The notes under the pieces are model-generated. The model was not told the DNA's origin, searched no databases, and saw only the letters and a program-made list of their open reading frames with translations. Positions 8,733 to 57,871 of a stretch of DNA of 64,000 nucleotides are shown in pieces. Source of the stretch: Devosia sp. 67-54 (GTDB lineage: Bacteria; Pseudomonadota; Alphaproteobacteria; Rhizobiales; Devosiaceae). The translations under genes and the position numbers were made by a program. The DNA is taken from positions 434,001 to 498,000 of the forward strand of contig NZ_MKVA01000005.1 of the NCBI RefSeq assembly GCF_001899075.1. The letters run 5' to 3'. Position 1 is the first letter of the stretch. Each line of letters begins with the position of its first letter.

Positions 8733-8774
8733 GGCGGCAGAATCTGCCGCCCAGCCCGGACGCATTTGCCGGGC
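8733..8774. promoter_or_regulatory. Two CGGCA dyads upstream of flgE (candidate FlbD-like sites)
   Basis: CGGCAGAATCTGCCG at 8735-8749 is a dyad with 7-bp arms around one base, extending to 9-bp arms over 8733-8751. A weaker relative, 12 of 15 positions, lies at 8757-8771 and ends in TTTGCCG. The same dyad recurs at 16324, 18915, 19422, 43688 and 51878, mostly upstream of flagellar genes. flgE starts 147 bases downstream. I see no good sigma-54 -24/-12 pair here. Confidence 0.6.
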
Positions 8775-8895
8775 GCGCCGGCGCGCGGCGGCCGGAAATG
8801 CTGCAAATTCAACGAGATGAGAGTCTGGCACCCGGCTTGCATCGCTGAGCCCGAACAGGCGTGCGCGAGCCGCCGCAGGCAATTGGGGACGTGCA

Positions 8896-15017: not shown

Positions 15018-16148
15018 CTACTGGAGCAGACGGAGCACGTTCTGGTCCGACTGCGAGGCCAGCGACAGGGCCTTGGTGCTGAGGCTCTGGCGGGTCTGCA
15101 GCGCGAGCAGGTTGGCGGCTTCCTCGTTGGAGTCGGCCAGCGTCAGGTTCGACGCACCGGTCTGCAGCGTGTTGATCAGGGCCTTGGTGAAGTCCTGACG
15201 GGTCTGCACGATCGACAGCTGCGAACCGAAGCTCGAGGCATTCGCACGCAGCGTGTCCGACGCACCCTTGAGCTTGGACAGGATGGTGGTGATGCCGGCG
15301 TTGGTGTCGAAGCCGGTGGCGCTGAGCTGCGCGAGGCCGAGGCCGGTCGCGCTGGTGTCGGCGCCGGTGATGGTCAGGTTCGAGGTGCCGGTTTCGTTGA
15401 ACACCACCTTGAGCTGGGTGGAGGTGCCCGCCAGCAGGTTGTTGCCATTGAAGCCAGCGTCCTTGGTCAACTGGTCGATCTGATCGAGCAGGCCATTATA
15501 CTGCGAGATCAGAGCGGCGCGAGCCGGGTTGGCGACCGCTGCACCAGCGCCAGCGGCAACGTAGGCATCGGTTGCACCCGAGGTGAAGCCGACGGCGGTC
15601 GAGCCGATGGTCACCGTGGTGCCGGCCGCGCCACTGATGACCAGCTTGGTCCCAGCAGTGTCCTTCGACGCGCTGATGCCGGAAATCGCGGCGGTATTGA
15701 TGGCCGTAATCGCTGCGTCGATGTCAGCGCCATCGGCGATCGAGACGTCCGTGCCGTTGATCTTAAGCGTCGCAGCAGAGCCCGACGGCGCGGTATAGGT
15801 CGCCTGAACCGACGAGAGGTGCTCGGGGCTCGCAACGGTCTCGGAGAGCTGCTGCGCCTGGTTCGCCGTGGATTTGGCGGAGTCGACGAGCTTCTGGATC
15901 GAGGTGATGCCGTCGTTGGCGGCCTGGATGGTCTGGATGGCGTTGCCAACCGAGTCCAGCAGGTTGCCGAGGTCCGACGCACGGGCGTTCAGCGACTGAG
16001 CGGTGAAGTACGAGGTCGGGTTGTCGAGAGCACTGTTGACCTTGTTGCCGGTCGCCAGACGGGTCTGGGTGGTGTCGAGCAGCGAAGCAGTGTTCTGGAG
16101 GGACAGCAGGTTCGAACGAACCGATGCTGAAAGCGTGATGTTAGACAT
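15018..16148 (-). CDS. fliC: Flagellin
   Basis: The 376-residue filament protein starts SNITLSASVRSNLLSLQNTA and ends LSTKALSLASQSDQNVLRLLQ, the conserved D0/D1 helices. The central region contains a flagellin IN-type motif (LKINGTDVSIADGADIDAAITAIN, then SGISAS) in the variable domain. Only one flagellin gene is in the window, although alphaproteobacteria often have several. The 234-base upstream region holds a CGGCA dyad at 16324-16338. A GCCGATAG sequence on the minus strand (plus-strand 16203-16210) resembles a sigma-28 -10 element but lacks a well-placed -35. FlbT probably acts on this leader. Confidence 0.96.
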   Translation of the reverse strand: MSNITLSASVRSNLLSLQNTASLLDTTQTRLATGNKVNSALDNPTSYFTAQSLNARASDLGNLLDSVGNAIQTIQAANDGITSIQKLVDSAKSTANQAQQLSETVASPEHLSSVQATYTAPSGSAATLKINGTDVSIADGADIDAAITAINTAAISGISASKDTAGTKLVISGAAGTTVTIGSTAVGFTSGATDAYVAAGAGAAVANPARAALISQYNGLLDQIDQLTKDAGFNGNNLLAGTSTQLKVVFNETGTSNLTITGADTSATGLGLAQLSATGFDTNAGITTILSKLKGASDTLRANASSFGSQLSIVQTRQDFTKALINTLQTGASNLTLADSNEEAANLLALQTRQSLSTKALSLASQSDQNVLRLLQ

Positions 16149-16323: not shown

Positions 16324-16338
16324 CGGCAAAGTTTGCCG
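16324..16338. promoter_or_regulatory. CGGCA dyad upstream of flagellin
   Basis: CGGCAAAGTTTGCCG is a dyad with 7-bp arms around a central base. It lies 176 bases before the flagellin start and 45 bases past the end of the small ORF on the same strand. The distance suits an upstream activator site rather than a site overlapping the promoter. No convincing sigma-54 pair was found between it and the gene. Confidence 0.6.
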
Positions 16339-17622: not shown

Positions 17623-18746
17623 CACATCACCTCGATGTCGGCCTGCAGCGCGCCGGCGGCCTTGATCGCCTGCAGGATGGCGATGAGGTCGCGCGGGCTG
17701 ATGCCAAGCGCATTGAGGCCGTCGACGAGCTGTTGCAGGCTGACCGAGTCCTTGACCACGGCGAGGTCGGAGTTGACGAAGTTGACGCCGAGATCGGTGC
17801 GCGGCACCTCGGTGGTGACGCCGTTGCTGAGCGGCGGCGGCTGGCTGACCTGCGGCGTTTCGGCGACGGTGACGGTGAGGTTGGACTGAGCCACGGCGAC
17901 GCTGGAGACGCGCACGTCCTTGCCCATGACGATGATGCCGGAGTTTTCGTCGATGACGATCCTCGCCGGCTGGTCGGTGTCGACGACGAGTTGCTCGATG
18001 TCGGTGATGAGGTCGACGATGTTGCCGTTGAAGTTCTGCGGCAGGGTGATGCGCACCGTCGCCTGGTCCTCGGGAACGGCGCAGGGGGTGCCGATGAAGT
18101 CGTTGATCGACAGCGCCACGCGGCGCGAGGTGGTGAAGTCGGGGTTCTTGAGGGCGAGGCGCAGGCTGCGCTGGGCACCCAGCGAAAAGCCGATCTCGCG
18201 CTCGATCAGGCCGCCCGAGGAGATGCGGCCGGTGGTCGGCACGCCCGAGATCACGGTGGCGGCGTCGCCGGAGGCCTTGAAGCCGTTGATGGTCACCGAG
18301 CCCTGGGCGATGGCATAGACCTCGCCATCGGCGCCGAGCAGGGGCGTCACCAGCAGGGTGCCGCCCTGCAGGCTCGAGGCGTCGCCGAGCGAGGAGACCG
18401 AGACGTCGAGGCGCGAGCCCTGGGTGGAGAAGGCGGGGAGATTGGCCGTCACCATCACGGCGGCGACGTTGCCGGTGCGCATGTTCTCGCCGCGGGTGTT
18501 GACGCCGAGCCGCTCCAGCATGGCCTGCAGGCTCTGCTTGGTGAAGGGCGAGTTGTTGAGGCTGTCGCCGGTGCCGTTGAGGCCGACCACGAGGCCGTAG
18601 CCGACGAGCTGGTTGTCGCGGACGCCCTCGATGTTGACGATGTCCTTGATGCGCGCGGTGGCCGCCGCGGCCGGCGCGGCGGGAGCGAACAGGCTCGCCG
18701 CCACCAGAAGCGCCGTCACTGCCCGCAGGAATGCCCGATATCTCAT
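17622..18746 (-). CDS. flgI: Flagellar P-ring protein FlgI
   Basis: The 374-residue protein forms the periplasmic P-ring. A Sec signal peptide covers about residues 1-28 (hydrophobic core then AAPAAAA). Family motifs include RIKDIVNIEGVRDNQLVGYGLVVGLNGTGD and NVAAVMVTANLPAF. ATG 18746 directly precedes the signal peptide, and the longer frame upstream covers regulatory DNA. It heads the flgI-flgJ-flgN series. The upstream 216 bases hold a CtrA box and CGGCA dyads shared with divergent fliX. Confidence 0.96.
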   Translation of the reverse strand: MRYRAFLRAVTALLVAASLFAPAAPAAAATARIKDIVNIEGVRDNQLVGYGLVVGLNGTGDSLNNSPFTKQSLQAMLERLGVNTRGENMRTGNVAAVMVTANLPAFSTQGSRLDVSVSSLGDASSLQGGTLLVTPLLGADGEVYAIAQGSVTINGFKASGDAATVISGVPTTGRISSGGLIEREIGFSLGAQRSLRLALKNPDFTTSRRVALSINDFIGTPCAVPEDQATVRITLPQNFNGNIVDLITDIEQLVVDTDQPARIVIDENSGIIVMGKDVRVSSVAVAQSNLTVTVAETPQVSQPPPLSNGVTTEVPRTDLGVNFVNSDLAVVKDSVSLQQLVDGLNALGISPRDLIAILQAIKAAGALQADIEVM

Positions 18747-18872
18747 TGTCGATCCCCGGTTGGCGCGCCGTCCCCACGGCGCACGCAATCGGCAAGAGCA
18801 ATGCGAAATGCGTGCCAGTTTCGCCAAGCGGCTGATATTGCAGCTTTTTGCCAAAACCGGAGGGCTGGCGCG

Positions 18873-18887
18873 GAGCAGCTTTTGCCG
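18873..18887. promoter_or_regulatory. Weak CGGCA-type dyad between flgI and fliX
   Basis: The 15-mer GAGCAGCTTTTGCCG matches 12 of 15 consensus positions. It lies 6 bases before the CtrA-type box at 18893. With the strong dyad at 18915 it would flank the CtrA box on both sides. Confidence 0.35.
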
Positions 18888-18892
18888 GGTCG

Positions 18893-18907
18893 TTAAGGGG
18901 TTGTTAA
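18893..18907. promoter_or_regulatory. CtrA-type box TTAA-N7-TTAA between flgI and fliX
   Basis: TTAA at 18893-18896 and TTAA at 18904-18907 are separated by exactly 7 bases (GGGGTTG), the full consensus for CtrA binding in alphaproteobacteria. It lies 147 bases upstream of flgI and 56 bases upstream of fliX. CtrA boxes near the -35 region usually mean activation. Confidence 0.7.
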
Positions 18908-18914
18908 CGGCTGG

Positions 18915-18929
18915 CGGCAGATTTTGCCG
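18915..18929. promoter_or_regulatory. CGGCA dyad before fliX
   Basis: CGGCAGATTTTGCCG fits the consensus at all 15 positions. It starts 7 bases after the CtrA box and ends 33 bases before the fliX start, where a -10 region or transcript start would lie. The same CtrA-then-dyad order is found before flgB. Confidence 0.6.
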
Positions 18930-18962
18930 GCCAGGCGATGGGCGCCCCGAGAGTCGCGACAA

Positions 18963-19379
18963 TTGCGCGTCGAAAGTACCGCCAGATCCAGTTCGTTGAG
19001 CCGTAGCGGCGGCGTCGGCCGGGCGCAGGGCGGCGGGTTTTTCGTCGACGACGGTGCGGCGACGCAGCGGGCCGCCACGGCCGCGCCGGTGGCGGCGGCG
19101 TCGAGCCTCGACGCGCTGCTGGCGCTGCAGGCGGTCGAGGACCCGCTGTTCGCCAGAAAGAAGGCGCTGCGGCGGGGAAATGCGCTGCTCGACACGCTGG
19201 AATCGATCAAGGCGGACCTGTTGCTGGGGCAGGTGAGCGAGGGGCGGCTCAACCAACTGATGGCGCTGATCGGGCAGGCGCGCGACCGCAACCTGCCGGG
19301 GCTGGACGGGGTGCTCGACGACATCGAGCTCAGGGCGCGGGTGGAGCTGGCCAAGTTCGGGCGCTACCCCGGCATGTAA
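18963..19379 (+). CDS. fliX: Flagellar assembly regulator FliX
   Basis: The 138-residue protein shows the FliX pattern: a basic Ser/Gly-rich N-terminus, FFVDDG, then SLDALLALQAVEDPLFARKKALRRGNALLDTLESIKADLL and GLDGVLDDIELRARVELAKF at the C-terminus. In Caulobacter FliX binds and tunes FlbD, coupling basal-body completion to late gene expression. A TTG at 18963 is the most likely start because it opens the conserved MRVES-like N-terminus. The ribosome-binding site is weak. No flbD gene is in the window. FliX is divergent from flgI, across a CtrA box and dyads. Confidence 0.87.
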   Translation: MRVESTARSSSLSRSGGVGRAQGGGFFVDDGAATQRAATAAPVAAASSLDALLALQAVEDPLFARKKALRRGNALLDTLESIKADLLLGQVSEGRLNQLMALIGQARDRNLPGLDGVLDDIELRARVELAKFGRYPGM

Positions 19380-19421
19380 CCCCCGGTACGGCCACGGGAT
19401 TCACGAATTCATCATGGCACC

Positions 19422-19436
19422 CGGCAAAGCTTGCCG
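19422..19436. promoter_or_regulatory. CGGCA dyad upstream of dksA
   Basis: CGGCAAAGCTTGCCG matches 14 of 15 consensus positions. Its last six bases are the predicted -35 element of dksA, so a bound protein should block RNA polymerase or reshape this promoter. Confidence 0.6.
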
Positions 19437-19459
19437 AGCGGTTTGCCGATCACTATAAG
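19431..19459 (+). promoter_or_regulatory. Predicted housekeeping promoter of dksA
   Basis: A -35 element TTGCCG (19431-19436), a 17-base spacer and a -10 element TATAAG (19454-19459) lie 32 bases before the dksA start. The -10 matches 5 of 6 consensus bases and the -35 matches 4 of 6. Confidence 0.6.
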
Positions 19460-19491
19460 GCCGGCAACTCGGGATGGTGAGTTGAGTCCAT

Positions 19492-19914
19492 ATGGTGCGA
19501 AGCGCGGTTGCTGAGGCTGACTATCGGCCGACTGAAAACGAACCCTTCATGAACCCGCGGCAGCGGGAGTACTTCCGCAAGAAGCTCGAGAACTGGAAGG
19601 ACGACATCCTCCGGGAAAGCCGCGAGACGCTCGAAAACCTCCAGGAAGAGAGCCAGAACCATCCGGACATGGCCGACCGCGCCTCATCGGAAAGCGACCG
19701 GGCCCTCGAGTTGCGGACCCGCGACCGGCAGCGCAAGCTGATCAGCAAGATCGACGCGGCGCTGAAGCGCATCGAAGACGGCACCTATGGCTATTGCGAG
19801 GAGACGGGCGACCCGATCGGGATCGCGCGGCTCGACGCCCGCCCGATCGCGACGCTGAGCCTCGAAGCCCAGGAAATGCACGAGCGGCGCGAGAAGGTGT
19901 ATCGGGACGAGTAG
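19492..19914 (+). CDS. dksA: RNA polymerase-binding transcription factor DksA
   Basis: The 140-residue protein enters the RNA polymerase secondary channel and works with ppGpp. The coiled-coil tip motif DxxDxAS is present as D59, D62, A64 and S65. The zinc-finger region reads YGYCEETGDPIG...ATLSLEAQEMHER. Of the four classical cysteines only the first remains, the other positions being T, S and A. Some alphaproteobacterial DksA proteins work without zinc this way. Upstream are a -10 TATAAG and a CGGCA dyad on the -35. It is convergent with an ABC-F gene across a repeat hairpin. Confidence 0.95.
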   Translation: MVRSAVAEADYRPTENEPFMNPRQREYFRKKLENWKDDILRESRETLENLQEESQNHPDMADRASSESDRALELRTRDRQRKLISKIDAALKRIEDGTYGYCEETGDPIGIARLDARPIATLSLEAQEMHERREKVYRDE

Positions 19915-43513: not shown

Positions 43514-43687
43514 TCGCGCATATCCCCGTCGTCTGTCCCCGAAGCGTTCCACCTCCCCAGGCGGGTCGCCTCGGCGTTAACAGTGCAGAAACCGTGCCAA
43601 AGCAAAAAGCTCAACGATTTCAGCGATGTCCAACATTCGCCCGGTTCGCGGCGCTAGACCCTGCGGTGCCCCGCGGCAAGAACGACC

Positions 43688-43702
43688 CGGCAAATTCTGC
43701 CG
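43688..43702. promoter_or_regulatory. CGGCA dyad between flgF and fliL
   Basis: CGGCAAATTCTGCCG fits the 15-base consensus fully. It lies 14 bases before the CtrA-like box at 43717 and 87 bases before fliL. Both divergent operons could be controlled from here. Confidence 0.6.
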
Positions 43703-50343: not shown

Positions 50344-51159
50344 CTAACTGCCGGTGAAGCTGCGCACGAGCGAGCCGGCGACCAGGTGCCAGCCGTCCAC
50401 CAGGACGAAGAAGATCAGCTTGAACGGCAGCGAGATCACCACCGGCGGCAGCATCATCATGCCCATCGACATCAGCACCGAGGCGACCACCATGTCGATG
50501 ATGACGAAGGGCAGGAACAGCAGGAAGCCGATCTCGAAGGCGCGGCGGAGCTCGGAGATCATGAAGGCCGGGATCAGGATCTTCAGCGGGATGGTCTTGG
50601 CGTCGGCCGGCGGCGGCTCGTTGCTGAGGTCGTAGAACAGCTGCACGTCCTGCTCTCGGACGTTGGCGGCCATGAAATCGTGCAGCGGCACCGAGCCGCG
50701 GTCGAACGCCTCCTGGAACTGGATCTGGCCGGCGAGAAGCGGCGCCACCCCCTGGTCGTAGGACGCCTGCAGCGTCGGCTGCATGATGAAGAAGGTCAGG
50801 AACAGCGCCAGCGACACCATCACCGAATTGGGCGGCGCGCTCTGCAGGCCGAGCGCCGTGCGCAGCAGCGACAGCACCACCACGATGCGGGTGAAGCTCG
50901 TCACCATGATCAGGATCGAGGGGGCGAGGGCGAGGACGGTGATGAGGCCGACGAGTTGGACGGCGCGCTGGGTCAGCGTCGTATCGTCGCCGAAATTGAC
51001 CGAGATGTCCTGCGCCTGCGCGACGGAGGGAAGGGCAATGACGGCAAGGGCGAGCGCTGCGAGCAGCAGGCCGCGGGGGAGGGCTCTAGCTGTCGGTGCC
51101 GCGCCGGAGACCGCGGAGGAGCCTGCTTCTGCCGCCAAAGGGGGTATGCCCACTGCCAT
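50344..51159 (-). CDS. fliP: Flagellar export gate protein FliP
   Basis: The 271-residue membrane protein has a signal peptide-like N-terminus, then four membrane segments with the FliP signatures SILIMVTSFTRIVVVLSLLRTALG, PPNSVMVSLALFLTFFIMQP and LPFVIIDMVVASVLMSMGMMMLPPVVISLPFKLIFFVLVDGW. It is part of the export gate with FliQ and FliR. It overlaps fliO by 74 bases if ATG 51159 is the start. Confidence 0.96.
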   Translation of the reverse strand: MAVGIPPLAAEAGSSAVSGAAPTARALPRGLLLAALALAVIALPSVAQAQDISVNFGDDTTLTQRAVQLVGLITVLALAPSILIMVTSFTRIVVVLSLLRTALGLQSAPPNSVMVSLALFLTFFIMQPTLQASYDQGVAPLLAGQIQFQEAFDRGSVPLHDFMAANVREQDVQLFYDLSNEPPPADAKTIPLKILIPAFMISELRRAFEIGFLLFLPFVIIDMVVASVLMSMGMMMLPPVVISLPFKLIFFVLVDGWHLVAGSLVRSFTGS

Positions 51160-51739
51160 TTGGCGTGGGTTTAGCTGAGTCGTCGCCGGCCCCCGCGGAA
51201 TTCTCGACGCGCAGCCCCGGGCCCATGGGGATAACCTTGTCGCTGCCGTCGACCGGACGCAGCAGGTTGGTGTGGCGCAACGAGGTGCGCGGTGTCAGCG
51301 GCGCCGGGCGGGCAAGGTCGCGCAGCCGGTCGACCGCCTCGCGCGGCACCGGCCGCTCGGGCGGGGTCGGGGTGCGGATGTCGGAAGGCTCGGCGGCGGC
51401 AGGTGCGGCCGGTCGCTGCGGACGGCGGGCGGCAGGCGCCGGCGCCGGTTCGGGCGCGGCGATGCCGGATTCGATCACCAGATCCTGCGGACCGCCGGTC
51501 ATGATCAGGTGCTCGACGTTGTCCCGGCGGATGATCACCACCTGGCGCTTGCCGTCGACCATGGCGGTGTCGACCACCTGCACGCGCTTGCGCGCGGTGC
51601 CGAGGCGGGCCGTGCCCCGCGTCAAAAGCTTGAGCAGCCACAAGCCCATAACGATCAGGACGAGGACGATGCCGAGGGCAAAAGCGGAGTGCAGAAGGGT
51701 GTTTTCCGACCCGCCGAACAGGGACGCGATGAATTGCAT
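51086..51739 (-). CDS. fliO: Flagellar biosynthesis protein FliO
   Basis: The protein of about 217 residues has an N-terminal membrane helix (LHSAFALGIVLVLIVMGLWLLKLLT) and a cytoplasmic domain with RVQVVDTAMVDGKRQVVIIRRDNVEHLIMTGG, the FliO core. The long Pro/Ala-rich tail is not conserved. ATG 51739 has a TGGAG site at 10 bases. FliO helps assemble the FliP ring, fitting its place before fliP. Confidence 0.9.
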   Translation of the reverse strand: MQFIASLFGGSENTLLHSAFALGIVLVLIVMGLWLLKLLTRGTARLGTARKRVQVVDTAMVDGKRQVVIIRRDNVEHLIMTGGPQDLVIESGIAAPEPAPAPAARRPQRPAAPAAAEPSDIRTPTPPERPVPREAVDRLRDLARPAPLTPRTSLRHTNLLRPVDGSDKVIPMGPGLRVENSAGAGDDSAKPTPNGSGHTPFGGRSRLLRGLRRGTDS

Positions 51740-51783
51740 ATCGAAATGCTCCACGGTCGCCGTCCCCCTTTACGACCGAACCT

Positions 51784-51798
51784 AAGCAGAATTTGCCG
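51784..51798. promoter_or_regulatory. CGGCA-type dyad upstream of fliO
   Basis: AAGCAGAATTTGCCG matches 13 of 15 consensus positions, with only the first two bases different. It lies 45 bases before the fliO start. A more degenerate relative follows at 51807-51821. Confidence 0.4.
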
Positions 51799-51854
51799 AG
51801 TCTTACCGGCAGATTGTGCAAAATGCGAGACGAAGGCAGCACGTTCCCATGTGG

Positions 51855-51869
51855 TTAACCAGCCCTTAA
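51855..51869. promoter_or_regulatory. CtrA-type box TTAA-N7-TTAA upstream of flgB
   Basis: TTAA at 51855-51858 and 51866-51869 are exactly 7 bases apart (CCAGCCC), a full consensus CtrA site. flgB starts 46 bases downstream. The divergent fliO-fliP unit starts 116 bases away on the other side. Confidence 0.7.
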
Positions 51870-51877
51870 CCATCGCC

Positions 51878-51892
51878 CGGCAAAGTTTGCCT
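51878..51892. promoter_or_regulatory. CGGCA dyad upstream of flgB
   Basis: CGGCAAAGTTTGCCT matches 14 of 15 consensus positions. It begins 8 bases after the CtrA box and ends 23 bases before flgB, like the fliX arrangement. A regulator bound here would cover the likely -10 or start site. Confidence 0.6.
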
Positions 51893-51915
51893 ACCGTGGT
51901 GAACAGAGTCTGAAG

Positions 51916-52323
51916 ATGGCCGGACTAGGAAGCATTCCGCTGCTGCAGGCGCTGACCGACAAGATGCGCTGGCATCAGTCGCGCCAGCAAGTGCTGGCCG
52001 AAAACATCGCTAACGCCGACACGCCCGGCTACATCGAGCGCGACCTCAAGCCGCTCAGCTTCGACGACCAGGTGCAGTCGGTGGCGCAGGTGAGCGTCGC
52101 CCGCACCAGTCCGATGCACATTTCGGTGTCGAGCGCCGGCGACACCGGCGGGTTCGACGCCGCGCGCGAGACGCCCTTCGAGATCACCCCCAGCGGCAAC
52201 GGCGTCACGCTCGAAGACGAGATGATGAAGGTCGCCGGCAACGACATGGACTACCAGACGGTGACCGCGCTCTATACCCGCTCGATGGCGATCCTGCGCA
52301 CCGCCCTTGGGCGCTCGGCCTGA
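51916..52323 (+). CDS. flgB: Flagellar basal-body rod protein FlgB
   Basis: The 135-residue rod protein has KMRWHQSRQQVLAENIANADTPGYIERDLKPLSF at the N-terminus and MMKVAGNDMDYQTVTALYTRSMAILRTALG at the C-terminus, typical of FlgB. It heads the flgB-flgC-fliE-fliQ-fliR-flhB unit. Upstream are a full CtrA box and a CGGCA dyad. Confidence 0.95.
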   Translation: MAGLGSIPLLQALTDKMRWHQSRQQVLAENIANADTPGYIERDLKPLSFDDQVQSVAQVSVARTSPMHISVSSAGDTGGFDAARETPFEITPSGNGVTLEDEMMKVAGNDMDYQTVTALYTRSMAILRTALGRSA

Positions 52324-52334
52324 GGATCGCCCAG

Positions 52335-52748
52335 ATGACGGATTTCCTTTCTTCACTGAAAATCGCCGCGACCGGCCTGCACGCGCAGAACGCGCGCATG
52401 CGGGTGATCGCGGAAAACCTCGCCAACGCGGACTCCGCCGGCAAGACGCCGACCGACGAGCCGTACCGGCGCCGCATCCCGACGTTCAAGGCGGTGATGG
52501 ACGCCGACGCCGGCGGCGAGGTGGTGAAGGTGGGCAAGATCGCGCTCGACCAGACCGCCTTCCAGGAGCGCTACGAGCCGGGGCACCCGGCGGCCGACAA
52601 GAACGGCTACGTCAAATATCCGAACGTCGATCCACTGATCGAGGCGATGGACATGCGCGAGGCGCAGCGCACCTACGAAGCCAACCTCAACGTCATCACC
52701 GTGACCCGGCAGATGCTGGGGCGCACCCTCGACATCCTCAAGGGCTGA
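52335..52748 (+). CDS. flgC: Flagellar basal-body rod protein FlgC
   Basis: The 137-residue rod protein starts LSSLKIAATGLHAQNARMRVIAENLANADSAG and carries YVKYPNVDPLIEAMDMREAQRTYEANLNVI at the end, the FlgC signature. It follows flgB by 11 bases and precedes fliE by 18. Confidence 0.96.
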   Translation: MTDFLSSLKIAATGLHAQNARMRVIAENLANADSAGKTPTDEPYRRRIPTFKAVMDADAGGEVVKVGKIALDQTAFQERYEPGHPAADKNGYVKYPNVDPLIEAMDMREAQRTYEANLNVITVTRQMLGRTLDILKG

Positions 52749-52766: not shown

Positions 52767-53090
52767 ATGACCACGCCGTTCAACGCCGTCGCCGCGGCCT
52801 ACAGCAACGCCTCCAAGCTGATCACCGACGCCGCCAAGCCTTCGAGCGGCGCATTAGGGCAGGCGGGACAAGCGCCTGATTTCGGCAAGCTTCTGGCCGA
52901 CCAGGTGCAGGGCGTCATCGACTCCGGCAAGGCCTCGGACAAGATGTCGCTTGATCTGCTCAACGGAAAGGCCAACGTCGTGGATGTCGTCACCGCCGTC
53001 AGCCAGACGCAACTGGCGATGGAGAGCATGGTGGCGATCCGCGACAAGGTGATTTCCGCCTATGAGGAAATCATGCGGATGCCAATCTAG
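52767..53090 (+). CDS. fliE: Flagellar hook-basal body protein FliE
   Basis: The 107-residue protein has the FliE pattern FGKLLADQVQGVIDSGKASDKMS and VDVVTAVSQTQLAMESMVAIRDKVISAYEEIMRMPI at the C-terminus. FliE joins the MS ring or export gate to the rod. It lies between flgC and fliQ. Confidence 0.95.
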   Translation: MTTPFNAVAAAYSNASKLITDAAKPSSGALGQAGQAPDFGKLLADQVQGVIDSGKASDKMSLDLLNGKANVVDVVTAVSQTQLAMESMVAIRDKVISAYEEIMRMPI

Positions 53091-53099
53091 GATACTCGC

Positions 53100-53366
53100 A
53101 TGAACGGCGCCCAGGTTCTCGATATCGCCCGTGACGGCATATGGGTGATGGTGCTGGTCGCGGCGCCGATGATGCTGGTCGGGCTGGTGGTGGGCATCGT
53201 CATCGCGCTGGTGCAGGCGCTGACGCAGATCCAGGAACAGACGCTGGTGTTTGTGCCCAAGATCCTCGCGATCTTCGTCACCATGCTGATCGCACTGCCA
53301 TTCATGGGCGCCACCATGTCGAGCTTCATGACGCGGCTGGCCGACATGATCGTGACCGGCGGATGA
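53100..53366 (+). CDS. fliQ: Flagellar export gate protein FliQ
   Basis: The 88-residue protein has two membrane helices and the FliQ signature LVGLVVGIVIALVQALTQIQEQTLVFVPKI. It joins FliP and FliR in the export gate. The stop overlaps the fliR start by 4 bases (ATGA). Confidence 0.96.
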   Translation: MNGAQVLDIARDGIWVMVLVAAPMMLVGLVVGIVIALVQALTQIQEQTLVFVPKILAIFVTMLIALPFMGATMSSFMTRLADMIVTGG

Positions 53367-54130
53367 TCTCGCTCAACTGGCTGCCCGAGACGGCCTATTT
53401 CTACGTGCTGATCTTCGCGCGGGTCGGCAGCATCCTGATGCTGCTGCCGGCGCTGGGCGAAATGACCATCCCAGCGCGCATGCGGCTGAGCTTTGCGCTG
53501 GTGTTCAGCCTGGTGCTCTATCCGCTGGTGCAGCCGCAGCTTCCGGCGCTGCCGAGCGAAGTGCTGCAGACCATCGTCTATCTCCTGCACGAGATTGCGG
53601 TGGGGCTGATCCTGGGGGCCATCATCCGTTTCGTCACCATGGCGGCCGCGGTGGCCGGCGCGGTGATCGCGTTCCAGACCGGGCTGTCGGGCGCGCAGGG
53701 GGCCGATCCGATCAATGGCGGCACGCAGGGTGCGCTGATCGGCGCCTTCCTGTCGATGCTGGGGGTGACGCTGATCTTCGCCACGGATTTGCACCATGTG
53801 GCGCTGATGGGGATCCGCGACAGCTACATGATCTTTTCGCCCAAGGAGCCGCTGATGTTCGGCGACGCCGCGCAGATGGCGGTGCAGTCGGCGGCGTCGG
53901 CGTTCGTCATCGGCGTGCAGATGTCGGCGCCGTTCATCGTGCTCGGGCTGGTGTTCTACCTCGGCATGGGCCTTTTGGCGCGGATGATGCCGCAATTGCA
54001 GGTGTTCTTCGTCGCCATGCCGGCCTCGATCTGGGTCGGGCTGAGCCTTGTGGCGCTGCTGCTGTCGATGATGATGGGCTGGTACCTCACGCATTTCCAG
54101 AATGAGCTCGAGCTGTTCCGGGGGCGGTGA
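53363..54130 (+). CDS. fliR: Flagellar export gate protein FliR
   Basis: The 255-residue membrane protein has several helices and FliR-type segments LIFARVGSILMLLPALGEMTIPARMRL, GLILGAIIRFVTMAAAVAGAVIAFQTGL and LGLVFYLGMGLLARMMPQLQVFFVAMP. It completes the FliPQR gate. Its TGA overlaps the flhB ATG (TGATG). Confidence 0.95.
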   Translation: MISLNWLPETAYFYVLIFARVGSILMLLPALGEMTIPARMRLSFALVFSLVLYPLVQPQLPALPSEVLQTIVYLLHEIAVGLILGAIIRFVTMAAAVAGAVIAFQTGLSGAQGADPINGGTQGALIGAFLSMLGVTLIFATDLHHVALMGIRDSYMIFSPKEPLMFGDAAQMAVQSAASAFVIGVQMSAPFIVLGLVFYLGMGLLARMMPQLQVFFVAMPASIWVGLSLVALLLSMMMGWYLTHFQNELELFRGR

Positions 54131-55209
54131 TGAGCGACGAAGCGCCGGAACAATCCTCGAAAACAGAAGACCCGTCGCAGAAGAAACTCGACGACGCGCA
54201 CAAGCGCGGCGACGTGGTCAAGAGCCAGGAGGTCAACAACTGGTTCATGATCGCCGGGTCGGGGCTGCTGTTCTCGCTGATGGCGGCGCCGACGACCACT
54301 GGGCTCGCGACCTCCCTCAAAACGCTCCTTGCCAATGCCGATCAGTTCGATATCGGCGGGCCGGCGCTGACGAATTTCTTCACCGGGCTCGCCGTCACCA
54401 TCCTCACCGTGGCGCTGGTGCCGCTGACGGTTCTTATGGTGTTCGGCATCGCCGCCAATCTGGTGCAGCACCGGCCGCTGCTGTCGCTCGAGCCGATCAC
54501 GCCGAAATTTTCCAAGATCTCGCCGATCCAGGGCGGCAAGCGGCTGTTCTCGCGCGACGCGCTGGTCAATTTCGTCAAGGGCCTCGTCAAGCTGGGCGTG
54601 GTCGGTGGCGTGGTGTTTGCGGTGATGTGGAGCGACCGCGACCGGCTCGAGATGATGGTGACGCTCGATCCGGGGGCGCTGCTGCCGACGTTCCAGGAGA
54701 TGGGGCTCAAGATCTTCGGGGCGGTGCTGGCGATCGTCACGGTGATCGCGCTCGCCGACTACGTCTATCAGCGGCAGCGCTGGTGGACGCGGCTCAAGAT
54801 GACGGTGCAGGAGGTGCGCGACGAGTACAAGCAGATGGAGGGCGACCCCAAGATCAAGGGCCGCATCAAATCCATCCGCAACGAGCGCAGCCGGCGCCGC
54901 ATGATGGCCAACGTGCCGAACGCGACGGTGGTGATCACCAACCCGACGCACTTTGCGGTGGCGCTCAAATACGACCGCTCGATGTCGGCGCCGCTCTGCC
55001 TCGCCAAGGGCGCCGACGACGTGGCGTTCCGCATCCGCGAGCTGGCGAAGGCGCACGACGTGCCCATTGTGGAAAACCCCCCGCTGGCGCGGGCGCTGTT
55101 CGCCTCGGTCGATGTCGACGAGAGCATCCCGACCGAGCATTTCAAGGCGGTGGCGCAGGTGATCGGCTTCGTCATGCGCATGCGCGACAAGCGGGCCTGG
55201 AAAGCATGA
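54130..55209 (+). CDS. flhB: Flagellar export switch protein FlhB
   Basis: The 359-residue protein has four membrane helices and a cytoplasmic C-domain with the self-cleaving NPTH motif (N271-P-T-H274, in VVITNPTHFAVALKYD). Cleavage after N271 switches export from rod-hook to filament substrates. GTG 54127 in frame is an alternative start, but ATG 54130 overlaps the fliR stop. cckA follows 97 bases after the stop. Confidence 0.96.
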   Translation: MSDEAPEQSSKTEDPSQKKLDDAHKRGDVVKSQEVNNWFMIAGSGLLFSLMAAPTTTGLATSLKTLLANADQFDIGGPALTNFFTGLAVTILTVALVPLTVLMVFGIAANLVQHRPLLSLEPITPKFSKISPIQGGKRLFSRDALVNFVKGLVKLGVVGGVVFAVMWSDRDRLEMMVTLDPGALLPTFQEMGLKIFGAVLAIVTVIALADYVYQRQRWWTRLKMTVQEVRDEYKQMEGDPKIKGRIKSIRNERSRRRMMANVPNATVVITNPTHFAVALKYDRSMSAPLCLAKGADDVAFRIRELAKAHDVPIVENPPLARALFASVDVDESIPTEHFKAVAQVIGFVMRMRDKRAWKA

Positions 55210-55306
55210 GGATTGCGGGCGCAGTGGCTTCTGCGCGCTAGAGGGTGACTCCGCCATTTGCTAGAGCTTTGGGGCGGTGATTCGGCCGCGAGCGAGGGGC
55301 GAATGG

Positions 55307-57871
55307 ATGTCCAGCATGCCGGCTGACGAGGACAACTATCCGAGCCCGCTGCTTTCCCGCACCCGCAACATCTCCGGCCTGTGGCGCGTGGTGGCGCTGG
55401 CCGCGGCGTTCATCGTCGTGGCTGTGGCGATCTCGACGCTGGGCGAATACATCCCGCCCGACGTGATCCTGGTGTTCGTCGGCCTGCTCGCGGTGGTCGG
55501 CGTGTTCTGCCTGTTCGCGCTGACGGCGGGGATTTTCCGGTTCTCGTCGGCGGGCGAGACGCAGACCCTGTCGCGCGCCATCGTCGACAGCCTGCCGTTC
55601 GGGGCCGTGGTCAGCGACCGCGACGGCCGCATCTCCTACGTGAACGCACAGTATGGCGAGCTGGCCGGCGGGGTGAGCGAAGGGGTGCCGGTCGGGGTAC
55701 CGCGGCTGTTCGCCGGGCAGCCGGAAGCCAGCGAGGCGATCTATCGGCTGTCGCGCGCGGCGCGCGATGGCCGCCCCGCGACCGAGGACGTGCGGCTGGT
55801 GGGCGGTCTCGGCGGCTCGCTGGGCGGCTCCAACAAGCCGGTCTGGTACCGGCTGGCGGTGCGGGCGCTGCCGCAAACCGAAGATGCTGGCAGGCCGCTG
55901 GTACTGTGGTCGGTCGAGGACATCACGCGCGACCGCGAGCGGCAGGACAACGCCTTTCTCGAGCTGCAGCGGGCGATCGACTATCTCGACCACGCGCCGG
56001 CCGGGTTCTTTTCCGCCGATCCGCAGGGGCGGGTGCAGTATCTCAACTCGACGCTGGCCGACTGGCTGGGCCACGACCTCGCCGAGTTCGAGGCGGGCAC
56101 GGTGCGGCTCGGCGACATCGTGCGCGGCGACGGCGCGAGCCTGTTGATGCGCGGCCGGGCCGACGGCGAAATCCGCACCGAGATCATCGACATCGACCTC
56201 GTCAAGCAGAACGGCACCTCGTTTCCGGTACGGCTGCTGCACCGGGCGGCGCGCATGGCCGACGGCGAGCTGGGCGAGACGCGGACGCTGGTGCTCGACC
56301 GGCGCAACGGCGTACAGGGCGAAGAGGCGCTGCGTGCCTCCGAAATCCGCTTTTCGCGGTTTTTCAACGACACGCCGTTCGCCATCGCCACCCTCGACAA
56401 GGATGGCCGCATCATCCGCACCAACGCGCCATTCAGCCGCATCTTCGACTGGTCGGGCAGCGAAAAGCCGCTCGACCGGGTCGCCATGCCGGAGCTGCTC
56501 GGCGAACAGAGCCGCGCCCGCTTCGCCGAGGCGTTCGAGGCGGCGCTCGCCAACAAATCCGAGATCGAGCCGGTCGACGCGCAGCTCAGCCGCGAGGGCG
56601 AGCATGCCATCCGGCTCTACATTTCCGGCTCCGAGGAGGCCGAGGGGTCGCCCGAGCGGGTCAACGTCTACGCCCTCGACATGACCGAGCAGCGCAAGCT
56701 CGAGGCGCAGTTCGCGCAGGGCCAGAAGATGCAGGCGGTGGGCCAGCTCGCCGGCGGCGTGGCGCACGATTTCAACAACGTCCTCACCGCCATCATCGGC
56801 TTTTCCGACCTGCTGCTGCTCAAGCACAAGCCGGGTGATCCGAGCTTTGCCGATCTGATGTCGATCAAGCAGAGCGCCAACCGCGCCGCCGGCCTCACCC
56901 GGCAATTGCTGGCGTTTTCGCGCCGGCAGACGCTGCGGCCGCAAATCCTCGAAATCCCGACGCATGTCGACGATCTCACGGTGCTGCTCAAGCGGCTCAT
57001 CGGCGAGCAGATCGCGCTGCACGTCGATCACGGTCCGGCGATCTGGCCGGTGAAGGCCGATCTGGTGCAGCTCGAGCAGGTGGTGGTGAACCTCGTGGTC
57101 AACGCCCGCGACGCGATGCCCAATGGCGGCTCGATCACCATCCGTACCCGCAACGTACCCGAGGCCGAGGCGGCGGGGCTCAGCTACACCGGCATGCCGG
57201 CCGCCGACTACGTGCTGATCGAGGTGGAGGACACCGGCACCGGCATGACGCCGGAGATCATGGAGAAGATCTTCGAGCCGTTCTTTTCCACCAAGGAGCT
57301 CGGCAAGGGCACCGGGCTCGGCCTCTCCACCGTCTACGGCATCATCAAGCAGACCGGCGGCTTCATCTATCCCGAATCCGAAGTCGGCAAGGGCACGGTG
57401 TTCAGGATCTTCCTGCCGCGGCACGTGCCGGCGGAGGGCGAGGTGGTCGCCCGGCAGCAGGCCGCGGTGGTCAAGGACCTTACCGGACATGAACGCATCC
57501 TCTTGGTCGAGGACGAGGACAATGTCCGCTCGTTCTCGGCGCGGGCGCTGCGCGCCACCGGCTACGAGGTGTTCGAGGCCGACAGCGGCGAGGAGGCGCT
57601 CGACGTCCTGGCCGATATCGGCGGGCAGATCGACCTGATGATCTCGGACGTGGTGATGCCCGAGATGGACGGGCCGGCGCTGCTGATCAAGGTGCGCGAG
57701 CGGCTGCCCAACCTCAAGGTGATCTTCGTGTCGGGCTATGCCGAAGAGAGCGTGCGGCAGGACATCGCCGACGACCGCTCGGTCGAGTTCCTGGCCAAGC
57801 CGTACTCGCTCGACCAGATCAACTCCAAGGTCAAGGAAGTGCTGGGCAAGGGCGCGCAGACGCTGCAATAG
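55307..57871 (+). CDS. cckA: Cell-cycle hybrid histidine kinase CckA
   Basis: The 854-residue kinase has two membrane helices near 25-45 and 50-70, PAS-type domains (about 90-220, 220-340 and 350-470), a dimerisation domain with H487 ([22 protein letters not shown]), an ATPase domain ([38 protein letters not shown]) and a receiver with D781 ([14 protein letters not shown]). This fits CckA, which through ChpT phosphorylates CtrA and CpdR. ATG 55307 follows GAGGGG at 9 bases. It sits just after flhB, as in other Hyphomicrobiales. Confidence 0.93.

Follow-up and report, generated by a model that had tools for sequence, protein, structure and literature searches.

Upstream of flgB, a TTAA-N7-TTAA box is followed at a short distance by a palindromic dyad, and a closely similar pair stands before fliX. 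Are the two elements a single regulatory module, which proteins would read it, and what would it do to the operon that begins with flgB? A first-pass annotation of this DNA had proposed one shared module for the early flagellar operon. Here, the arrangement was followed through the window (the whole 64-kb stretch of DNA that was analysed), the complete host genome, the host family, order and class, and a set of named genomes.

The flgB promoter region and its operon

The box upstream of flgB (TTAACCAGCCCTTAA) is a TTAA-N7-TTAA sequence at 51855-51869, where the first-pass annotation had placed it. It is followed by GGCAAAGTTTGCC at 51879-51891, a perfect 13-bp dyad of the form 6+1+6. The dyad had been given as 51878-51892, which is one base too long on each side. 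Since 51878 (C) and 51892 (T) are unpaired, the gap between box and dyad in front of flgB is 9 bases by the perfect-dyad measure, not 8. The rest of the earlier description is right, with the flgB ATG at 51916 just past the dyad. The region comprises the following features:

51086-51754, minus strand: fliO, divergent from flgB (TIGR03500, 26.2 bits, below the cut-off of 55.25)
51785-51797, no strand assigned: another dyad-like site (AGCAGAATTTGCC), close to where fliO starts and mostly conserved in 11 relatives
51855-51869, plus strand: putative CtrA full site TTAA-N7-TTAA (TTAACCAGCCCTTAA), all eight TTAA bases invariant between the window and 11 family relatives
51879-51891, no strand assigned: perfect dyad GGCAAAGTTTGCC, candidate ftr4-type operator for FlbD, GGCA-N4-TTGCC invariant in the alignment
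51893, plus strand: predicted transcription start (A), 24 nt past the CtrA box, from the 23-24 nt rule in the excerpt of PMC6180460
51916-52323, plus strand: flgB (TIGR01396, 61.1 bits, cut-off 59.05)
52335-52748, plus strand: flgC (TIGR01395)
52767-53090, plus strand: fliE (PF02049)
53100-53366, plus strand: fliQ (PF01313)
53141-54130, plus strand: open frame holding fliR (PF01311)
54127-55209, plus strand: flhB (PF01312)
55307-57871, plus strand: cckA as scanned, in an open frame from 55277 (NF046020, 1271.6 bits, cut-off 1000)

The true start of fliR lies inside its frame, because the PF01311 match begins at residue 87. fliO and fliP run opposite to the flgB operon. The gene for CckA, the kinase feeding CtrA, follows flhB within about 100 bases (55209-55307) in the same direction, so that a CtrA-controlled operon might read into cckA. 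When the fliO-flgB interval of the window was aligned with those of 11 relatives (12 in all), box and dyad appeared as invariant blocks. A further block around GTGCAAAATGCGAGAC (51816-51831), located between the two dyads of the interval, is also largely kept in the 11 relatives. It is possible that this block and the dyad-like site at 51785-51797 are control elements of fliO.

For Rhodobacter sphaeroides, the excerpt of PMC6180460 gives a distance of 23-24 nt from the end of the CtrA box to the transcription start, which is a purine and is preceded by G at -4 and A at -11; the rule is said there to agree with Caulobacter crescentus. Placed by hand, this register fits flgB at A51893 (24 nt) and fliX at G18930 (23 nt), and the best register for fliF, at 25 nt, is one nucleotide longer than the rule. 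The predicted flgB start puts A51882 at -11 and G51889 at -4, with the dyad extending from -14 to -2. Both bases belong to the dyad itself, and therefore only the register is informative.

In having a full TTAA-N7-TTAA site ahead of it, the early gene flgB shows one feature of a CtrA-dependent class II flagellar promoter. No sigma-54 GG/GC element (-24/-12) was found at flgB; the sole hit of at least 13 in 51739-51920 scores 14.0 of 20.5 and lies on the fliO strand. FlbD-dependent sigma-54 flagellar promoters (class III/IV) have the same dyad as a likely enhancer. As the fliO-flgB region is without a sigma-54-like site above 14 of 20.5, flgB does not belong to this class. A sigma-54 promoter at flgB within the dyad was likewise rejected, since its GG and GC start 10 apart and not 12.

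Occurrence of the box-dyad pair in the host genome and its relatives

The window holds two TTAA-N7-TTAA sites, the flgB box and one at 18893-18907 before fliX; the count in 100 dinucleotide shuffles of the window is 0. The second site lies in the fliX-flgI interval:

18802-18817, minus strand: sigma-54-like site TGGCACGCATTTCGCA upstream of flgI (motif scan)
18874-18886, no strand assigned: weaker dyad on the flgI side (GGCAAAAGCTGCT, read on the minus strand), 3 mismatches, 6 bases from the CtrA site
18893-18907, plus strand: putative CtrA full site before fliX (TTAAGGGGTTGTTAA, motif match)
18916-18928, no strand assigned: dyad GGCAGATTTTGCC, gap of 8 past the CtrA site, 98 bp from the flgI sigma-54-like site
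18924-19379, plus strand: fliX, frame as scanned (PF10768)

The flgB arrangement had been described as nearly a copy of the one at fliX, with a gap of 7 in the latter; the fliX gap is 8, and the difference of one base between the two stands. As the listed fliX start falls inside the dyad, the true start is probably further in. Within 18740-18990, dyads flank the CtrA box to the left and right, and flgI is preceded by a sigma-54-like site. Another dyad (GGCAAAGCTTGCC, 19423-19435) is found between fliX and dksA; no sigma-54-like hit of at least 13 accompanies it in 19380-19500.

Across the 4.21 Mb of the host genome, TTAA-N7-TTAA occurs 20 times and the reversed pattern 10 times. The composite of TTAA-N7-TTAA, 0-30 bases and GCANANNTTGC occurs exactly twice, before fliX and flgB, with 0 control matches. 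When both sides of the 20 boxes were read for a dyad starting 0-25 bases away, a dyad with at most two mismatches was again found at fliX and flgB only (2 of 20 sites), and the next best has three mismatches. A relaxed pattern that accepts TTTA as the right half-site adds just one copy, the third, which lies outside the window before fliF and has a gap of 10. An in-frame fliF ATG starts 2 bases past this dyad, at the predicted start site (L042:5305-5321), so fliF could be leaderless or use a later codon. The dyad by itself (GGCAAA-N-TTTGCC, up to two mismatches) is found 11 times in the 64-kb window, compared with 1.49 +/- 1.18 in shuffles (maximum 5).

The pair is conserved in every genome searched of the host family, in which Pelagibacterium lentulum was among the genomes sampled. 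The composite is present in 21 of 21 genomes including the host's own (53 matches vs 2 in the control), and thus in 20 of 20 relatives, where all 50 composites directly precede fliF (20), flgB (16), fliX (13) or flgI (1). All 16 further family genomes, two of them from the same genus, carry it as well (43 matches vs 4 in the control). From this second set, 30 loci were read out of the 43 matches, and all 31 distinct composites, identical ones being counted once, precede fliF (11), fliX (10), flgB (6) or flgI (4). The flgI-facing composites are thus also found in relatives. In total, 81 of 81 family composites with the downstream gene read stand before one of these four genes, and the gaps are gene-specific: always 10 at fliF, 9-10 at flgB, 7-9 at fliX and 7 at flgI. 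The proposal of one shared module for the early flagellar operon is supported by these data. Two outcomes had been named that would speak against it, namely an occurrence at many non-flagellar genes and an absence from close relatives, and neither was encountered.

Within the host order, the composite is found in 182 of 397 genomes (293 matches) and in 61 of the 142 sampled genera; the reversed pattern has 20 matches, in 20 genomes. FliX was found in 228 of the 397 genomes. The composite occurs in 173 of 228 FliX-positive and 9 of 169 FliX-negative genomes (Fisher p 3e-50, uncorrected for common descent). The reversed control is also commoner in FliX-positive genomes (17 of 228 vs 3 of 169, p 0.01), so base composition explains a small part of the association. 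The strict composite is missing from 55 of the 228 FliX-positive genomes, including 16 of 17 in one family (f35). On 30 loci read in the order, 33 composites precede flhA (13), flgB (11), fliO (3), fliF (2), flgI (1) or none of the genes searched (3). One of these last three precedes a gene for a LysE-type translocator (L052:1501-1538), a non-flagellar case.

At the class level, 29 of 385 genomes have the composite, compared with 22 for the reversed control, and the bare count therefore says little outside the order. Among 27 class loci read, the downstream gene is fliF in 10, fliO in one, the genome's own fliX in one and none in 15; the loci before flagellar genes show that some class composites are real. 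Named genomes were also scanned with a stricter pattern, the gap being fixed at 9; many of the hits are Devosia, and the 71 stretches obtained comprise 20 with flgB, 13 with fliF, one with fliO and 37 with none by BLAST. Six of these 37 hold a small frame, alike by eye, and the one that was scanned resembles the FlhB C-terminus (PF01312). Three Asticcacaulis loci contain a frame that was scanned in one of them and encodes an SLT domain there (PF01464). In one Asticcacaulis stretch (L172:2837-2873), the composite directly precedes this type of transglycosylase (SLT) gene, which is possibly a flagellar cell-wall enzyme. Many of the remaining stretches without a BLAST match, outside alphaproteobacteria, are probably due to chance.

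The dyad as a putative FlbD site

FlbD is encoded in the host genome (NF050807, 813.8 bits, cut-off 750), clustered with fliF, fliG and flhA. FliX is encoded within the window, where CckA is also found, so that both FlbD and FliX are present. The genome has six strong hits for bEBPs including FlbD. Four of the six were scored with the FlbD model, L019 and L020 being left out, and one passed the cut-off. At 327 bits against the cut-off of 750, the bEBP encoded at C8:87326, close to one of the other TTAA-N7-TTAA sites, was rejected as FlbD.

The same dyad is found upstream of sigma-54-like sites. A sigma-54 scan at 17 or above gives many background hits in GC-rich DNA, and hits were therefore considered only if they fell between a dyad and the start of a flagellar gene. 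Besides the flgI case, two such dyads lie in the window:

8736-8748, no strand assigned: dyad with 2 mismatches upstream of flgE, 77 bp from sigma-54-like TGGCACCCGGCTTGCA (8826-8841, plus strand)
43689-43701, no strand assigned: dyad upstream of flgF, 89 bp from sigma-54-like TGGCACGGTTTCTGCA (43584-43599, minus strand)

Over the host genome, dyads with 1-2 mismatches are separated from the sigma-54-like site by 77 bp at flgE, 76 bp at fliK, 89 bp at flgF and 98 bp at flgI. A dyad followed by 72-102 bases and a -24/-12 element was found in 21 of 22 family genomes (38 matches vs 4 in the control). Thirty of these loci were read, giving flgF in 15 (two of them being one place), flgE in 6 (one match weak, 27.6%), fliK in one and none in 8; two of the loci are from the host genome. 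Over flgF, flgE and fliK the distances range from 74 to 90 bp and the dyads are often in tandem. At flgF, several tandem pairs lie 88-90 and 74-76 bp away from the sigma-54-like site. At early promoters, a second dyad with at most two mismatches follows the first in none of the 50 family composites. A perfect dyad is also located about 176 bp upstream of a flagellin frame (16325-16337; frame 15018-16148, minus strand), and the best sigma-54-like hit in between reaches only 16.5 of 20.5.

In the excerpt of a review (PMC3930126), FlbD is described as binding ftr sites of early genes, e.g. ftr4 upstream of fliF, and repressing them, and as activating middle genes. Its action is under the control of FliX (PMC3930126, PMC3096577, both in part), and Caulobacter without fliX has increased fliF and decreased fliK promoter activity (PMC3096577, in the part available). 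The use of one dyad both at early promoters and at sigma-54-like sites fits FlbD, because this protein represses early and activates middle genes. Most likely, therefore, the dyad is an FlbD site of the ftr4 kind, and the copies upstream of sigma-54-like sites are likely FlbD enhancers.

A comparison was made with the Asticcacaulis family (Caulobacteraceae). A FliF match was found in 29 of 30 genomes (G804 had none), and a short second match in G799 (L271) was excluded from the promoter reading. In their best placement, all 29 fliF promoters contain, besides a CtrA-like box with 0-2 mismatches, a sequence resembling the dyad, e.g. GGTAAATCCTGCC; the gap is 10 in 28 and 9 in one. These dyads are degenerate, with 3-4 mismatches in 28 of 29. 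A promoter score of at least 5.5 is reached by 20 of 29, compared with 3 of 1450 shuffled controls, and at least 4.5 by 14 of 29 compared with 0. The strict composite is present in only 9 of 60 genomes of this family (control 0), and its 10 matches precede flgB (3), fliF (2), fliQ-like (2), SLT-like (2) and lpxC-like (1, frame L233) genes, the last three kinds being assigned by eye. The degenerate site, at a fixed short distance past the fliF CtrA box, is a candidate counterpart of ftr4.

The module is thus similar to C. crescentus fliF/ftr4, an early gene under CtrA with a repressing FlbD site (PMC3930126, in part), and the order of box, 10 bp and dyad is shared by host fliF and 28 of 29 fliF promoters of the Asticcacaulis family. 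With this precedent, the shared module is less novel than the first-pass annotation implied. Unlike fliF/ftr4, the host dyad is almost perfectly palindromic, and flgB and fliX carry the module too, as do flhA, fliO and others in other families. The fla2 promoters of R. sphaeroides (flgB2p-fliI2p, fliF2p-fliL2p) are also CtrA-activated and divergent, and start 23-24 nt past the box. They differ in that the flgB2 and fliI2 boxes have a 6-bp spacer and that a dyad of the FlbD type is unmentioned in the excerpt of PMC6180460. None of the literature titles and abstracts surveyed describes the module at flgB, fliX or flhA.

A probable two-input switch and its alternatives

Taken together, 51855-51891 is very probably a two-input switch of the flgB-flgC-fliE-fliQ-fliR-flhB operon, with CtrA turning it on and FlbD turning it off. 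Binding of both proteins, activation, repression and the start site are all deduced from the sequence. CtrA, fed by the CckA relay, would bind TTAA-N7-TTAA near -35 and activate the operon early in assembly. After a signal from FliX that the basal complex has been completed, FlbD, a sigma-54 activator, would bind the dyad 9 bp downstream of the flgB box and switch the operon off. With the predicted start, the dyad would overlie the -10 region and reach roughly to the start itself, and bound FlbD would therefore block RNA polymerase; CtrA could still sit upstream while the FlbD dimer excludes the polymerase. fliX and fliF would be governed by the same switch. Bound to this dyad at sigma-54 promoters, at a distance of 74-98 bp upstream and often to tandem copies, FlbD would turn on the middle genes flgF, flgE, fliK and flgI. 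Given its two dyads and sigma-54-like site, the fliX-flgI interval suggests a single FlbD site with two opposite tasks, one that may silence fliX and activate flgI.

Alternatively, the shared CtrA site might activate fliO and repress flgB, so that the composite would be a double negative element for flgB. In C. crescentus, too, fliO and flgB diverge from an interval that contains a CtrA site, and the excerpt of PMC6180460, citing others, says that CtrA represses flgB and activates fliO there, with an FlbD site unmentioned. We regard this as unlikely for the host, even though the two genes are divergent here too. In order and gap, box and dyad at flgB are similar to the pair at fliF, which belongs to the CtrA-controlled class II genes (PMC3096577, in part), and the repressor sites described in the accessible part of the cited work are half sites over the -10 region, in contrast to the full site upstream of flgB.

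The dyad sits where the -10 element must be by the 23-24 nt rule, and its fliF version in the Asticcacaulis family is less symmetrical yet keeps the spacing. It could accordingly represent just the -10/start region conserved among class II promoters that depend on CtrA, and bind RNA polymerase, not FlbD. This is quite improbable. The same palindrome, partly in tandem, recurs at sigma-54-like sites, 74-98 bp upstream of them, in a position that requires no -10 element; across genomes, the composite goes with FliX; and the 18 other TTAA-N7-TTAA sites of the host genome are without the dyad. That a regulator other than FlbD binds the dyad appears very improbable: FlbD binding is a prediction and the genome has further bEBPs, two of them unscored against the FlbD model, but just one of the four scored passed the cut-off, and the dyads lie at flagellar genes of both the early and the sigma-54 type, as for FlbD. 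A chance juxtaposition of two common motifs, which the first-pass annotation had already thought unlikely, has a negligible probability, for although TTAA-N7-TTAA occurs 20 times in the host genome and the class-level composite is hardly commoner than its reversed control, the controls in the host genome are 0 and every family relative searched conserves the composite ahead of the same genes, which refutes it for the host family.

The two-input switch is thus most likely of a known kind, the CtrA-activated, FlbD-repressed early promoter of fliF/ftr4, which would here also serve flgB and fliX. What distinguishes it is the near-fixed geometry, the pure gene context in the family and the spread in the order. 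In the literature, Caulobacter fliF is the one example given of an early flagellar gene repressed by FlbD (PMC3930126, PMC3096577, as far as the excerpts go).

More tentatively, and with less confidence than we place in the switch at flgB, the box-dyad geometry might be a general hand-over device in alphaproteobacteria of the FlbD/FliX type. An FlbD dimer over the -10 region would shut fliF, flgB, fliX and, in other families, flhA; FliX would shut its own gene; and the fliX-flgI dyad would silence fliX and enhance flgI. If so, one binding event at fliX-flgI would end the early phase and start the middle phase, and a single dyad near the box would signal off, and more distant dyads, often in tandem, would signal on. 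The small difference between the class-level count and its control lowers the probability of this reading. The near-fixed geometry, readable from the sequence, suggests which early operons FlbD closes, in which lineages, and where a site may have opposite tasks. The shut-off of early genes at basal body completion would thereby become a base-by-base prediction for many genera.
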